Assembly (NCBI RefSeq): GCF_000504285.1
Contig: NZ_KI632511.1
Span: forward strand, 1,175,372 to 1,239,371
DNA length: 64,000 bases
Direction: 5' to 3'
DNA from: Actinospica robiniae DSM 44927
Lineage (GTDB): Bacteria; Actinomycetota; Actinomycetes; Streptomycetales; Catenulisporaceae
The translations under genes and the position numbers were made by a program. This document shows positions 20,713 to 25,921 of this stretch, piece after piece. The notes below the pieces were generated by a model that was not told the origin of the DNA, ran no database searches, and worked only from the letters and a program-made list of their open reading frames with translations. Within the stretch, counting starts at the first letter, position 1, and each line of letters opens with the position of its first letter.

Positions 20713-23700
20713 TCAGGAGGTCGCCGGGGCCACGGGGCCGGCCGCGTCGCCGCTGCGGACGACGCCGAGGACCTGCGCGAGGGCGCTGTTGCCGGTGTCG
20801 GCGATGTAGAGCAGGCCGGTGGACTGGTCCACCGCGAGCGCGCCCGGCGTGTTGAGGTGGGAGGCGGTCGGGGCGGTGCCGCTGCTCTCGCCGCCGGGCG
20901 CGGCGGAGGAGTTCACGACGGTGCTGATGAGCCCGTCGGGGGTCACCTCGCGGACGGCGTTGTCGAAGGTGTCGGCGATGAACAGGTCGCCGGCGCCGTC
21001 CAGCGCGATCCCCTGGGGGTCGTTGAGCTGGGCCGCAGTGGCCTGGCCGCCGTCGCCGGAGAAGGCGCCGAGGCCGTCGTTCGCCGTGTCCGCCGCGTAG
21101 TCGCCGGCCACGGTGCTGATTCGGCCGGTCCGCGCGTCGACGCGGCGGACGACGTTGTCGGCCGAGTCCGCGATGTACAGGTTGCCCTTGGCGTCGAGCG
21201 CGAGCCCGACCGGCTGGTTCAGCTGCGCGGAGGAGGCGGGACGCTCGTCGCCCGCGTATCCGGCGCGACCGTTGCCGATCACCTGCTTGAGCGAACCCTT
21301 CTTGCTCAGCTCGACGACGCGGTTGTGGTAGGTGTCGGAGACGTACACGTCACCGGCCGCGTCGACGACCACTGCTTCGGGGTGGTCGAGTTGGACGCCT
21401 CGGTCGAAGCGCGCGACGGTGCCGTTCGCGCGGATCTCGCGGACCGCGTTGTCTCCGGCGTCGGCGATGAAGACGTCGCCGGCCGCGTCCACGGCGGTGC
21501 CGTCGGGCTGGTAGAGAGTGGCGTCGGTGGCCTTGCCGTCGTCGCCGTGCTCGCCCTGCGCCTCGAGGGAGCCGGCGATGACCGTGGTGCCGCCGTCTTC
21601 CAGCTGCACGAAGACATTGTCGCCGGTGTTCGAGACGTACACCGAGCCGTTGGCCGCGGCGATGCCGGCCGGCCGGTAGAGCGAGCCGGGGACGACGTTG
21701 GGCACGACGGCGCCGCTGCCCGGGTCCACGTGGGTGCCCGCGTCCTCACCGACCGAGGCGTAGGGCATCGTCTGGAGCACCGGGCCGGTGGGCTGGGCGC
21801 TCTGACCGATGGTCAGGTTCAGGTTGTCGGCCGCGCCGTCGCTGTTGGCGCCGCTGCTGACGCCGACGGTGGCGAGCGTGATGAGGGCCTGCTTCGCGCC
21901 GGCCGGCACCTTGCCGAACCAGGCCTGCGGAATCAGGCTACTGACGTTGCTGCGCTGGACCGCGGTGACCGGGCCGACGGCCGCGGTGCTGAGCGTCGCG
22001 CCCTTGGCGTCTTGGAAGGCCACGGTGACGGTCGCGTAGTCGCTCTGGGTGGCGTAGCCGCCGAGCTCACCGGACAGTTCGAACGGCTGGCCGTCGACGT
22101 CGAGGGCGCTCAGGTCGATCTTCTGGGTGCCGGTGGTGGCGATGCCGGGGATCGAGACGGTGCCGGGGTTGGTGCCGCCGTAGAAGTCGCGGGCGCCGGT
22201 CACGCCCGGGTAGGTCGAGGCGCGCGACTCCTGGGTGCCGTCGACGGGGCTGAGCGGCGAGTTGCTGGTCCAGCAGTCCGCGATGGTCTGGTCGTCGCCG
22301 AGGGGAGCGCCGAGCGCGGTGGCTGCAGTGTAGTCCTCGGCTCCGCCGTTCTCGATCAGGTTGCCGTCGAGGGCCGGGGTGACCACGTCGGCTGCGGGGC
22401 AGGGCGCGGTGTAGGCCTGGCCGGCGGCGCTCTGACCGATCGTCAGGTTCAGGTTGTCGGCGGTGCCGTCGCTGTTGGCGCCGGCGTTGACGGCTCCGGT
22501 GATGATCGTGACCAGGACCTTCCGGGTGGCGGACGGCACGGTGCCGTAGATGCCGTCCGGAAGCAGTTCGGAGACGTTGCCGCGGTCGGCGGCGGTGGCC
22601 GGGCCGATGTCGACGGTGCTGATGGGAGCGCCGTTCGCGTCCTCGAAGGTCGCCGCGATGATGCCGTAGTCGTTCTGGCTGGAGTAGCCGCCGACGTCGC
22701 CGGTGAGTTTGAACGGCTGGCCGCCGGCCTTGATCGAGCTGACGTCGATCAGCTGGCTGCCGCTGGTGACTACGCCGGCCACCGCGACAGTGCTGGGGTT
22801 GGTACCGCCGTAGAAGACGCGGCTACCGGTGACGCCCGGGTAGGCGGAGGCGGCCGATTCCTGGGTGCCGTCGGGAGCGGCCAGCGGGGAGGTGCTCGTC
22901 CAGCAGTCGGCCAGGGTCTGGGTGTCGCCGGCGGGCGCGCCGAGCGCCGTGGCCGCGGTGTAGTCCTCGGCGCTGGGGTTCGCGATCAGGTTGGCGTTCA
23001 GGGCCGGGGTGACCACGTCGGCCGTGGGGCAGGCGGCGGTGTAGTCCTGGCCGGCGCCGGCGGCCGCGATGGTCAGATTCAGGTTGTCGGCGCGGCCGTC
23101 GATCCCGTAGCCGGAGCTGACGCCGGTGGAGGCGATGGTCACGAGGACCTGCTTGGTGCCGGCCGGCACCGTGCCGGCCGCGGCCTGCGGGATCAGGCTG
23201 GTGACACTGTTGCGCTGGGCCGCGTCCACCGGGCCGAGGGTGGCCGTGCCGAGGGAGGTGCCGTCGGCGTCTTCGAACTCAGCGGTCACCGTGGCGTAGT
23301 CGGCCTGGGTGGTGTAGCCGCCGACCTCGCCGGTCAGCGTGAAGGAGCGGCCGTCCGCGTTCAGGGCGCTGACATCGATCAGCTGCGTGGCGGTGGTGGT
23401 CACGCCGACGATCGAGACCTGCGGGGAGTCGTAGTCGTAGCCGCCGTAGAAGGTGCGGCTGCCGACCTGGCCGGGCACGCCGGAGGAGGCGGCCGATTCG
23501 AAGACGGCGCCCGGCGCGTTCATCGGGGAGGCGGCCGTCCAGCAGTCGGGGACGTCCTGCGTGTCACTGGCGGGCGCACCGAAGGCCGTCACCGCGGTGT
23601 AGTCCTCGGCGCCGGGGTTCGCGATCAGGTTCGCGCCCAGCGCGGGGGTGACCACGTCCGGGGCCGGGCAGGCGGCGGCATAGCTCTGGAGGGTGCCGGC

Positions 23701-23808
23701 CGTGGCGGCGGACCCGCCTTCGGAGTCGACGACTCCGAAGCCGATCGCCGTCGCCACCACCGCGGCCGCTGCCACGGCCTTCCAGCGGAGCTCCTTGTGG
23801 GTTTTCAT
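20713..23808 (-). CDS. Large secreted protein: three tandem beta modules plus NHL propeller
   Basis: 1031 residues from ATG 23808 (MKTHKELRWKAVAAAAVVAT); an ATG 24 bases upstream is also possible. A signal peptide is followed by three tandem modules of about 200 residues. Each opens with a Cys-Pro-Ala/Thr-DVVTPAL-x-N-L-I-x-N-x-x-AEDYTA block and ends with ADNLNLTI. From about residue 650 to the end come NHL/YVTN-type repeats (PxGIAxDxxGxLYIADxxDNxVRxV) forming a beta-propeller. NHL propellers bind proteins or surfaces; the repeated modules look like carbohydrate-binding-type jelly rolls, which is inference. It precedes the phospholipase C-type gene on the same strand. Confidence 0.85.
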   Translation of the reverse strand: MKTHKELRWKAVAAAAVVATAIGFGVVDSEGGSAATAGTLQSYAAACPAPDVVTPALGANLIANPGAEDYTAVTAFGAPASDTQDVPDCWTAASPMNAPGAVFESAASSGVPGQVGSRTFYGGYDYDSPQVSIVGVTTTATQLIDVSALNADGRSFTLTGEVGGYTTQADYATVTAEFEDADGTSLGTATLGPVDAAQRNSVTSLIPQAAAGTVPAGTKQVLVTIASTGVSSGYGIDGRADNLNLTIAAAGAGQDYTAACPTADVVTPALNANLIANPSAEDYTAATALGAPAGDTQTLADCWTSTSPLAAPDGTQESAASAYPGVTGSRVFYGGTNPSTVAVAGVVTSGSQLIDVSSIKAGGQPFKLTGDVGGYSSQNDYGIIAATFEDANGAPISTVDIGPATAADRGNVSELLPDGIYGTVPSATRKVLVTIITGAVNAGANSDGTADNLNLTIGQSAAGQAYTAPCPAADVVTPALDGNLIENGGAEDYTAATALGAPLGDDQTIADCWTSNSPLSPVDGTQESRASTYPGVTGARDFYGGTNPGTVSIPGIATTGTQKIDLSALDVDGQPFELSGELGGYATQSDYATVTVAFQDAKGATLSTAAVGPVTAVQRSNVSSLIPQAWFGKVPAGAKQALITLATVGVSSGANSDGAADNLNLTIGQSAQPTGPVLQTMPYASVGEDAGTHVDPGSGAVVPNVVPGSLYRPAGIAAANGSVYVSNTGDNVFVQLEDGGTTVIAGSLEAQGEHGDDGKATDATLYQPDGTAVDAAGDVFIADAGDNAVREIRANGTVARFDRGVQLDHPEAVVVDAAGDVYVSDTYHNRVVELSKKGSLKQVIGNGRAGYAGDERPASSAQLNQPVGLALDAKGNLYIADSADNVVRRVDARTGRISTVAGDYAADTANDGLGAFSGDGGQATAAQLNDPQGIALDGAGDLFIADTFDNAVREVTPDGLISTVVNSSAAPGGESSGTAPTASHLNTPGALAVDQSTGLLYIADTGNSALAQVLGVVRSGDAAGPVAPATS

Positions 23809-23946
23809 GGCTCCATTAGCGGAGCCGCTCACTGCGGTAGCAGAACCCGTTCACGTCTCCCGGACGTCCCTCGTATGAACACTCGTACCGTGTTCGAAGG
23901 ATGGCCGGTGGCTTTCAGCCCTCTGACACGAACGCCCGCACGCATA

Positions 23947-24110
23947 GGGCGCGTTTGAGAAGTATCGCCGGGGCCGCGACGCCTGCCACGCACGCTCGCT
24001 GCGTTGCCGGAGCGGTTACAGACGAGGCGAGTATGCGCCCGACCCGGCGCCTTGCGAGCGCACGCGTCAGACGCCGCGGCCTGATCCGACGCTACTTCTC
24101 AAACGCGCCC
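23947..24110. mobile_element. 164-bp MITE with near-perfect terminal inverted repeats
   Basis: The left end GGGCGCGTTTGAGAAGTA (23947-23964) is repeated as a perfect inverted copy at the right end (24093-24110). Similarity continues inward (CGCCGG against CGTCGG). TA dinucleotides flank both ends (23945-23946, 24111-24112), fitting a TA target duplication. The interior has no ORF but is itself hairpin-prone. Ends and size suit a non-autonomous element mobilised by an IS5- or IS630-like transposase; no such transposase is in the window. The right end runs into the TPR gene and supplies its stop codon. Confidence 0.8.
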
Positions 24111-25760
24111 TAGTCGGCCGAGCCGCTGCCGCAGGCGGTTCTGCGCGCCCTTGGCCTCGGCCTGTCCGTGCTGCTGCGCGGCGAGGTTCGCGCGGACTTC
24201 GGCGCGCACGTCCGGCGCGATCGCCGGGCAGATCAACATGATCGCGGCGAGCGGTTCGTGCAGTGCGGTGACGCGGCGGCCGAGGGCGTGCGCGGCGTGC
24301 AGGTAGCGCGCGGTGATCTCCCGGGCTATCTCAGAGCGCTGTTCCGGGCGCAGCCAGGCCTGCACGCACAGCGCGAAGGCGGCGGCGTCGACGGTCCAGT
24401 CCTCGGGTCCGTGCAGCAGGCGCAGCAGAAGCCTGCGACGGGTCGACTGCGGCCAGGGCTCGTCGACACGGTGGTGCAGGATTCCGAGGCATACCCAGGC
24501 TTGCGCGACGCGCGGCCAATACAGACCGCTGACTTCGTTGAGCGAGTCTCCGAACCCTGTCGGCGGCGGAACGTGTGCGAGCAGGCCGAGCAGGTCGTTG
24601 GGCGCGAGAGCCCCCAAGGGCAACGCGCGCTCGTAGCCGACGAGGGGTTCGCCCCAGACGTTACCCGCCACGTTGTACAGGACCTCGACGGCCCGCTCGG
24701 ACGGCGCGCGCACCGCCGCGACGGCCGTGGTCCCGTGGTACTCCCACAGCGGCGGCCCGTAGCCGGTGTTCGAGGGGCTGCGCGGATCCGGCTGTGGCAC
24801 CTCGCCGATCTCGAACTCCAGTTTGGGGTGGCTCGAGCGGACGGCGGCGAGAGCGCTCGGCGCTTCGATGGATGTCAGACGGCTGCGGCCGAGGCTCACC
24901 ACACCGTTCTCCGGCGCGTCGACGAAGTGCGCCATCGTGGCGGCGGCCTCGGTGGGCGGCGGCACCGCCTGCAGCCACCAGGCGCCTTCGCAGACCCGGC
25001 CCAGCAGCGACCGTAGATAGGCGACCTGGGGATGCTTGACGACCAGCCCGATCAACTCGGTGAGCGCGACCGCGTCGGAGACTTTCGCGTCCACCAGGGA
25101 CGTCCGTGCCTTTGCTGCCAGCAGGCAGCCGCGGGCCTTGACCGAACTGCCGTCCAGGTCGACCGCGCGGGCGGCCCAGCGCTGCGCGGCCGGTGCGTCG
25201 CCGCGCTTGAACTCGAGGTCGGCGAGGTCGAGGTGCAGCTCGACGTTGCTCGGCGAGAGCTTCAACGCGGATTTCCAGCTCTCGACGGCCCGATCCGGCT
25301 GCCCTGCGTCGCGCAGCGCGTAGCCGAGCATGATCAGGCTGCTCGGGTTGCGCGGGTCGGCCTTGCGGTCCAGCTGGGCGGCGCGCTCGCACCAGGCCAC
25401 CGCGTCGGCGGCGGCGCCGAGGCGGCGGGCGGCGCCGGAAAGCGCGCGCAACTCCTCCGGCCCGGCATCCTTCCGCCCGGCGGCGGCCTGTACGAGGGCG
25501 AGCCACGGGTTCAGGGCGCTGCGGACGGCCGAGTCCTCGACGTAGCCGACGGCCCGGAAGACCGGCACGACCGCCTTCGCCACGCCGCGAGCCGAGATCA
25601 GATGAGCCAACTGCGGGCCGAACCACGGCGCCTCGGCCCACGGCTCCGCCGGTTCGGCCGCGACCAGGGATCCGAGCAGGGCCAACGCCCTCGCGTACTC
25701 CCCCGCGGCAGCGGCCTCGTCGGCCGCGGTTCGAACCTGCTCCACTTCATCACCGGACAC
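24099..25760 (-). CDS. TPR-repeat protein truncated by MITE
   Basis: 553 residues from GTG 25760, chosen because GGGGAGGG lies seven bases upstream; an ATG at 25865 has no such site. Helical TPR-like repeats occupy about residues 1-240 (for example SLIMLGYALRDAGQPDRAVESWKSALKLSPSNVELHLDLADLEFKRGDAPAAQRW). The C-terminal half is a less familiar domain with Trp-rich segments. The last codons (Leu-Gly-Arg-Val-stop) are encoded by the MITE terminal repeat, so the native C-terminus has been replaced. It is divergent from the SNF2 gene, 161 bp away. Confidence 0.8.
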   Translation of the reverse strand: MSGDEVEQVRTAADEAAAAGEYARALALLGSLVAAEPAEPWAEAPWFGPQLAHLISARGVAKAVVPVFRAVGYVEDSAVRSALNPWLALVQAAAGRKDAGPEELRALSGAARRLGAAADAVAWCERAAQLDRKADPRNPSSLIMLGYALRDAGQPDRAVESWKSALKLSPSNVELHLDLADLEFKRGDAPAAQRWAARAVDLDGSSVKARGCLLAAKARTSLVDAKVSDAVALTELIGLVVKHPQVAYLRSLLGRVCEGAWWLQAVPPPTEAAATMAHFVDAPENGVVSLGRSRLTSIEAPSALAAVRSSHPKLEFEIGEVPQPDPRSPSNTGYGPPLWEYHGTTAVAAVRAPSERAVEVLYNVAGNVWGEPLVGYERALPLGALAPNDLLGLLAHVPPPTGFGDSLNEVSGLYWPRVAQAWVCLGILHHRVDEPWPQSTRRRLLLRLLHGPEDWTVDAAAFALCVQAWLRPEQRSEIAREITARYLHAAHALGRRVTALHEPLAAIMLICPAIAPDVRAEVRANLAAQQHGQAEAKGAQNRLRQRLGRLGRV

Positions 25761-25921
25761 GGCGATACCCTCCCCAGACTCACGCCAGCGCGCTGATGAT
25801 AGCCCGAGCGCGGGGGTGGCGAGTGCTTCGGCCGAGGGCGGGTAGTCGGTGGGGTCTCGCATCACTTCGTGGTGCGGACTCTCGCTATTCTGGCCCAGCT
25901 GTCTAGAGATGCGGAGCGACC

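Follow-up and report, generated by a model that had tools for sequence, protein, structure and literature searches.

The 164-bp element at positions 23947 to 24110 of the window, by which we mean the whole 64,000-nucleotide stretch examined here from the genome of Actinospica robiniae (9.92 Mb; 9,918,887 bases in one contig), is very probably a non-autonomous MITE of the IS5 family. Elements of this kind would insert at TA, preferably within CTAG, mostly in such a way that the stop codon at the insertion site is rebuilt, and would be tolerated near the 3' ends of genes.

In the window, the element is located between two tandem genes on the minus strand, a TPR-repeat gene and the next gene, which starts 114 to 138 bp past the element. 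Both the perfect 18-bp terminal repeats and the flanking TA dinucleotides described in the first-pass annotation were read directly in the sequence. The features are as follows.

20713 to 23832, minus strand: next gene, on the same strand as the TPR gene (ORF list, gene caller)
23915 to 23917, minus strand: TGA that would end the TPR frame after joining of the flanks at a single TA (read from the sequence)
23945 to 23946, no strand: TA, left copy of the 2-bp target duplication (sequence)
23947 to 23964, plus strand: left terminal inverted repeat GGGCGCGTTTGAGAAGTA, end type A (sequence and genome repeat searches)
23965 to 24092, no strand: core, an imperfect palindrome also conserved in sister species, where the terminal repeats differ (core comparisons)
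24093 to 24110, minus strand: right terminal inverted repeat, identical to the left one in inverted orientation (sequence)
24099 to 24101, minus strand: TGA that ends the TPR gene, within the terminal repeat (sequence, ORF list)
24102 to 24110, minus strand: GGG CGC GTT, also element DNA (sequence, ORF list)
24111 to 24112, no strand: TA, right copy of the target duplication (sequence)
24099 to 25865, minus strand: TPR-repeat gene, with its 3' end 12 nt into the element (ORF, TPR families in Pfam); its start codon is uncertain, GTG at 25865 in the mechanical ORF versus 25745 according to the codon-usage gene caller

The element carries no gene of its own, in substance as had been noted, although a plus-strand frame without stops crosses its whole length within a mechanical 70-aa ORF (23901 to 24113). 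A 17-mer from the terminal repeat matched the window 3 times with up to 3 mismatches, compared to 0.21 expected from shuffled sequences, and the two exact matches were the ends of the element. The duplication was taken to comprise TA rather than CTAG, since the 2-bp TA is all that copies at non-CTAG sites (for example L001, L178, L183, L189, and L198) have in common.

The first-pass annotation had proposed a genome search with the 18-bp end, and this search showed that the element is multi-copy. With up to 2 mismatches, the 17-mer had 31 matches in the whole genome, as compared to none for the reversed control. Nine copies, including the one in the window, were 94% to 100% identical over about their full length, while a tenth was without part of the right end and an eleventh was 78% identical. 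An exact scan of named genomes with the terminal repeat (TAGGGCGCGTTKGAGAAGTA) gave no matches, although the genome of the window itself was possibly outside that scan. Copies were present in all 3 genomes of the genus, that is, in the genome of the window (G000) and in those of 2 sister species (G001 and G002), and the core recurred with 83% identity in a genome from another genus of the same family (G004). A short length of 164 bp, 18-bp terminal inverted repeats, a duplicated TA and many dispersed copies agree with the earlier identification as a MITE, as does an IS5-family element with similar ends in a sister species. A match to the core was obtained at 66 loci, of which 56 could be analysed (10 in G000, 24 in G001, and 22 in G002). 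The remaining ten (L010, L012, L013, L014, L022, L121, L181, L187, L196, and L199) were left out since they were truncated, cut by a contig end, chimeric, or had fewer than 100 aligned bases.

The core and the terminal repeats differed in their degree of conservation. When copies representing the end types were compared, identity was 87% to 98% in the 128-bp core and 56% to 92% in the 36 nt of the terminal repeats. Since types B and D are close (92%), at least 4 clear end types can be distinguished: type A in G000, type B/D in G001 and G002, type C in G001, and type E in G002. The contrast was sharpest within G002, where copies of types D and E were 98% identical in the core and 75% identical in the repeats. 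In our reading of the sequences, it is as if terminal repeats had been exchanged by recombination on a retained core; alternatively, the two repeats may have co-evolved rapidly with the transposase. One chimera, L012, as judged by eye, consists of one end and the core joined to the end of another repeat family in the same genome.

This second repeat family (L026, L028, and L029) has CTAG borders and different ends, and shares about 71 bp of the central hairpin with the MITE at 78% to 79% identity; the start of L028 seems to coincide with a TAG stop codon. Four shrunken copies of the MITE itself, L061:3009-3034 (26 bp), L066:1523-1571 (49 bp), L067:1491-1544 (54 bp), and L068:1515-1568 (54 bp), retain little beyond the two terminal repeats, and 2 of them have a called stop codon at the border. 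In L009, one arm of the core is now a near-perfect complement of the other, as if it had been corrected from it within the hairpin. It was also observed that a 1,712-bp IS1182-family element has 5 two-ended copies in G000, 4 of which abut the CTAG border of the MITE, at 3 full copies and one 54-bp remnant (G000:C1:3335841, 7574469, 9615192, and 9726542; L295, L296, L297, and L294). The MITE border thus seems to be a hot spot for this element.

To place the copies relative to genes, we used gene ends from our own codon-usage gene caller, trained on 400 kb per genome, rather than the annotation. The stop codon of a neighbouring gene was located exactly at the border in 38 of the 56 copies in the 3 species; a called TAG stop was also present at the border of L010, which is outside this count. 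As a background, we used non-genic CTAG sites, which were called with slightly different thresholds from those of the copies. Stops were found at 3 of 10 copies versus 18 of 115 such sites in G000 (one-sided Fisher test, p 0.22), at 19 of 24 versus 24 of 71 in G001 (p 1.2e-4), and at 16 of 22 versus 19 of 72 in G002 (p 1.3e-4), and the background shares were 18/93, 23/70, and 20/68, respectively, when the thresholds of the copies were applied and both neighbours were called. The copies were thus in excess over the CTAG background at stop codons in both sister species, but not significantly so in G000.

CTAG is itself rare in these genomes, with 141, 88, and 83 sites per 400 kb in G000, G001, and G002 versus about 1,113, 1,077, and 1,057 expected, or about eight- to thirteen-fold fewer than base composition predicts, and between a quarter and a third of those that are non-genic are amber stops in the 2 sister species. 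The copies were also concentrated near 3' ends in a wider sense: 24 of 24 in G001, 21 of 22 in G002, and 8 of 10 in G000 were within 60 nt of the 3' end of a gene, as compared to 35/70, 32/70, and 29/107 of the CTAG sites. None of 43 copies was located between divergent genes, versus 31 of 138 CTAG sites. For convergent gene pairs of the sister species, CTAG sites were at stops as often as the copies were (21/23 sites and 14/15 copies), and the excess therefore rests on tandem genes, where 24 of 35 copies were at stops versus 36 of 135 CTAG sites in the 3 genomes together. When tested, the frequency of stops among CTAG sites did not by itself account for the seat at stop codons in G001 and G002; it may suffice in G000 or between convergent genes.

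The target codon, as deduced from the third base at the other flank, was already a stop (TAG or TAA) in 39 of 41 border stops, and would have been TAC or TAT in the other 2. Copy L115 in G001 allows a direct comparison, as it lies between 2 genes that have orthologues (82% and 86% identical) without the element in G002. The neighbouring protein ends ...LPLALA in G001, where GCC TAG lies at the border, and ...LPIGAA in G002, where the codons are GCC TGA; both stop at the same codon. This site, like the 39 border stops, contradicts the notion that the MITE generally supplies the stop codon of its neighbour. A comparison of 115 flanking genes, made to look for vertical retention, gave a single shared site, L173/L194; the 2 copies have the same orientation and different end types, and may also be independent insertions.

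A simple series of events would produce this pattern. An IS5-type transposase would act on the terminal repeats and insert the element at a TA, preferably in CTAG, with duplication of the TA. Because the element begins with G and ends with C, the sequence C-TA-G would become C-TA-[G...C]-TA-G, so that reading from either flank restores TAG and the protein stays the same. Copies are found almost only near the 3' ends of genes, where they would do least harm and where the strong hairpin could help to end transcripts. Both the loss of harmful insertions and an advantage of a hairpin at the 3' end would give such a seat, and the data do not distinguish between targeting, tolerance, and benefit as its cause. 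Survival near the 3' ends is the reason that we infer.

A possible but rather doubtful alternative is that the seat at stop codons is adaptive, the element being a portable bidirectional terminator or a stabiliser of mRNA 3' ends whose copies at stops are favoured and not merely tolerated. The predicted hairpin is very stable, at -121.4 kcal/mol versus -77.2 kcal/mol (sd 3.5) for 200 shuffled sequences, the shrunken copies (26, 49, and 54 bp) are still palindromic, with 2 of the 4 at a called stop, and the copies between tandem genes are at stops more often than the CTAG background. Furthermore, 12 of 49 consensus pairs in the alignment of the 56 copies, which as related sequences are not independent, keep pairing through two-sided changes. 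Nine of these pairs are in the repeats, where covariation is expected from the need for 2 matching ends in transposition, so that only the 3 pairs in the core bear on the function of the hairpin. No intrinsic-terminator pattern was identified, with no terminator-like site between 23700 and 24400 and no U-tract after the hairpin, as a Rho-independent terminator would have, and no Rfam family scored above its gathering cut-off (best MIR8788, 26.5 bits versus a cut-off of 124). Tolerance near 3' ends explains the seat at stops equally well, and most sites are species-specific, with only one shared among the 115 flanking genes, which argues against long retention. Of the RNA hairpin that the first-pass annotation had suggested to terminate the transcript, the predicted stability thus stands and the U-tract is missing; a role as a terminator is plausible but unproven.

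A more far-reaching and somewhat less probable version of this alternative would see the elements as mobile terminators living in stop codons. An IS5-type transposase would put a hairpin into an amber CTAG, TAG would be rebuilt on both sides, the gene would be insulated from its neighbour, and the core would be kept while the ends were swapped for those of the current transposase. It is unlikely that the transposase is actively directed to stops or 3' ends, for example by terminator hairpins or transcription, beyond its preference for CTAG. The 38 of 56 copies exactly at stops and, in the sister species, the 45 of 46 copies no more than 60 nt from a 3' end would fit such targeting, but only survivors are seen, and a CTAG preference combined with the loss of harmful insertions could look alike.

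For the preferred reading of a tolerated MITE, a candidate for the mobilizing element was identified in G001. This is an apparently whole IS of 1,027 bp with ends GGCCGTGTCTTCAAAG and borders CTA/TAG, which may belong to the IS427 group of the IS5 family. It contains one uninterrupted frame of 301 codons, the start codon of which is not settled, with matches to the IS5-family transposase models NF033580 (249 bits, cut-off 110) and PF13340 (93 bits, cut-off 34.3). The element with matching ends thus encodes an IS5-family transposase, and its ends resemble the terminal repeats of the MITEs in the sister species, types B/D and E. For type A, only a decayed candidate was found, a broken DUF4096 fragment (G000:4021490-4021883) with an adjacent end that has two mismatches; a search allowing 5 mismatches gave no second end. 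No whole IS with ends of type A was detected. Five single end matches in the genome of the window (with those at 3188788 and 3660274, which have 2 mismatches, also inspected) did not correspond to a whole IS, and L061 was the 26-bp palindrome.

Among 16 loci for DUF4096 transposases in G000 that were scanned for TA-bordered inverted ends, one convincing pair was identified (GGGCCTGTTTTGGAA, G000:8530420), although it was absent from a second scan with other bounds (L266). In other actinobacteria, 11 of 13 loci with relatives of the IS, the G000 locus apart, had ends of the GGCCGTGTTTC type flanked by TA at either side. At the 3 other seats of the IS in G001, no called gene ended at the IS border on the flank side, and the seat at stop codons is therefore not a demonstrated trait of the IS itself. 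The ends, the borders, and the target suggest that an IS5-type IS moves the MITE. IS630-type transposases also use TA within CTAG, and the TA duplication in CTAG would suit such a mover, but the one complete element with matching ends that was identified carries a transposase of the IS5 family, which makes an IS630-type mover improbable.

The copy in the window deviates from the pattern of rebuilt stops. The TPR gene ends ...CTA GGG CGC GTT TGA, or Leu-Gly-Arg-Val-stop, with the final Gly-Arg-Val described in the first-pass annotation; GGG CGC GTT TGA is inside the repeat, so that the last 3 residues and the stop codon are element DNA. Here, the target was A-TA-G and lay in a different frame from that of the TPR gene, so that the TPR frame continues for 4 codons to the TGA in the repeat. 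If the flanks are joined, the frame is 6 residues longer (594 versus 588 codons of the compared frame), and the protein would end CVRAFVSEG instead of GRV. The insertion thus slightly changes the predicted end of the neighbouring protein. As a reading of the DNA, the claim that the MITE supplies the stop holds for this copy, but not as a rule for the family, given the 39 of 41 border stops that were rebuilt. Only 2 of the 56 copies are read into, the copy in the window and L006, both ending at a TGA in the repeat, and a stop codon supplied by the MITE is an exception in the family.

The best relatives of the TPR protein are a 53% identical paralogue in the same genome and proteins of 40% to 50% identity elsewhere; their last residues are not conserved and they end at about the same place. 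With relatives this distant (53% at best), no sign was seen that the altered C-terminus matters. Selection of the window copy for redefining the C-terminus is highly improbable since, even though the last 3 residues and the stop are element DNA, the relatives share no conserved tail and have a similar end point, and only this copy and L006 among the 56 are read into.

Earlier studies describe MITEs located at the ends of genes and others that target CTAG. In the portions available to us of mostly non-subscription full texts (including PMC2229807 and PMC10969869), we found neither stop-rebuilding elements nor this MITE family described. MITEPsy1 of Pseudomonas syringae is likewise short (about 100 bp) with 18-nt terminal repeats, probably derives from an IS5-family element and targets CTAG or YTAA, resembling the Actinospica MITE in its use of CTAG, but it differs by a 4-nt duplication and an unrelated sequence, and a seat at stop codons is not described in the parts of the article that were available (PMC3189936). 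Members of the IS427 group similarly have an IS5-family transposase and, for most of those tabled, 2-bp direct repeats, but they are autonomous elements of 830 to 865 bp from Paracoccus, according to the sections consulted (PMC3281130).

Similarities in location were also noted. Copies of QMITE1 and QMITE2 in Coxiella burnetii overlap the 3' ends of genes by 1 to 50 bp, one copy gives 33 C-terminal residues of a protein, and QMITE2 serves as an insertion hot spot for a different IS, namely IS1111; however, neither a stop-rebuilding border nor an exchange of ends is described in the portions seen of that study (PMC5896051). One copy of MITEAba12 is fused to the 3' end of a gene and causes a premature stop, but the duplications are 9 bp, and a preference for stop codons is not reported in the accessible parts of the source (PMC6382973).

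An element that enters stop codons from either strand and leaves the protein unchanged would show how a parasite can multiply cheaply in a gene-dense genome. Mobile hairpins at stop codons could also scatter ready-made 3'-end hairpins, and a conserved core with exchangeable ends would make this family a clear bacterial system for transposase switching by non-autonomous elements.
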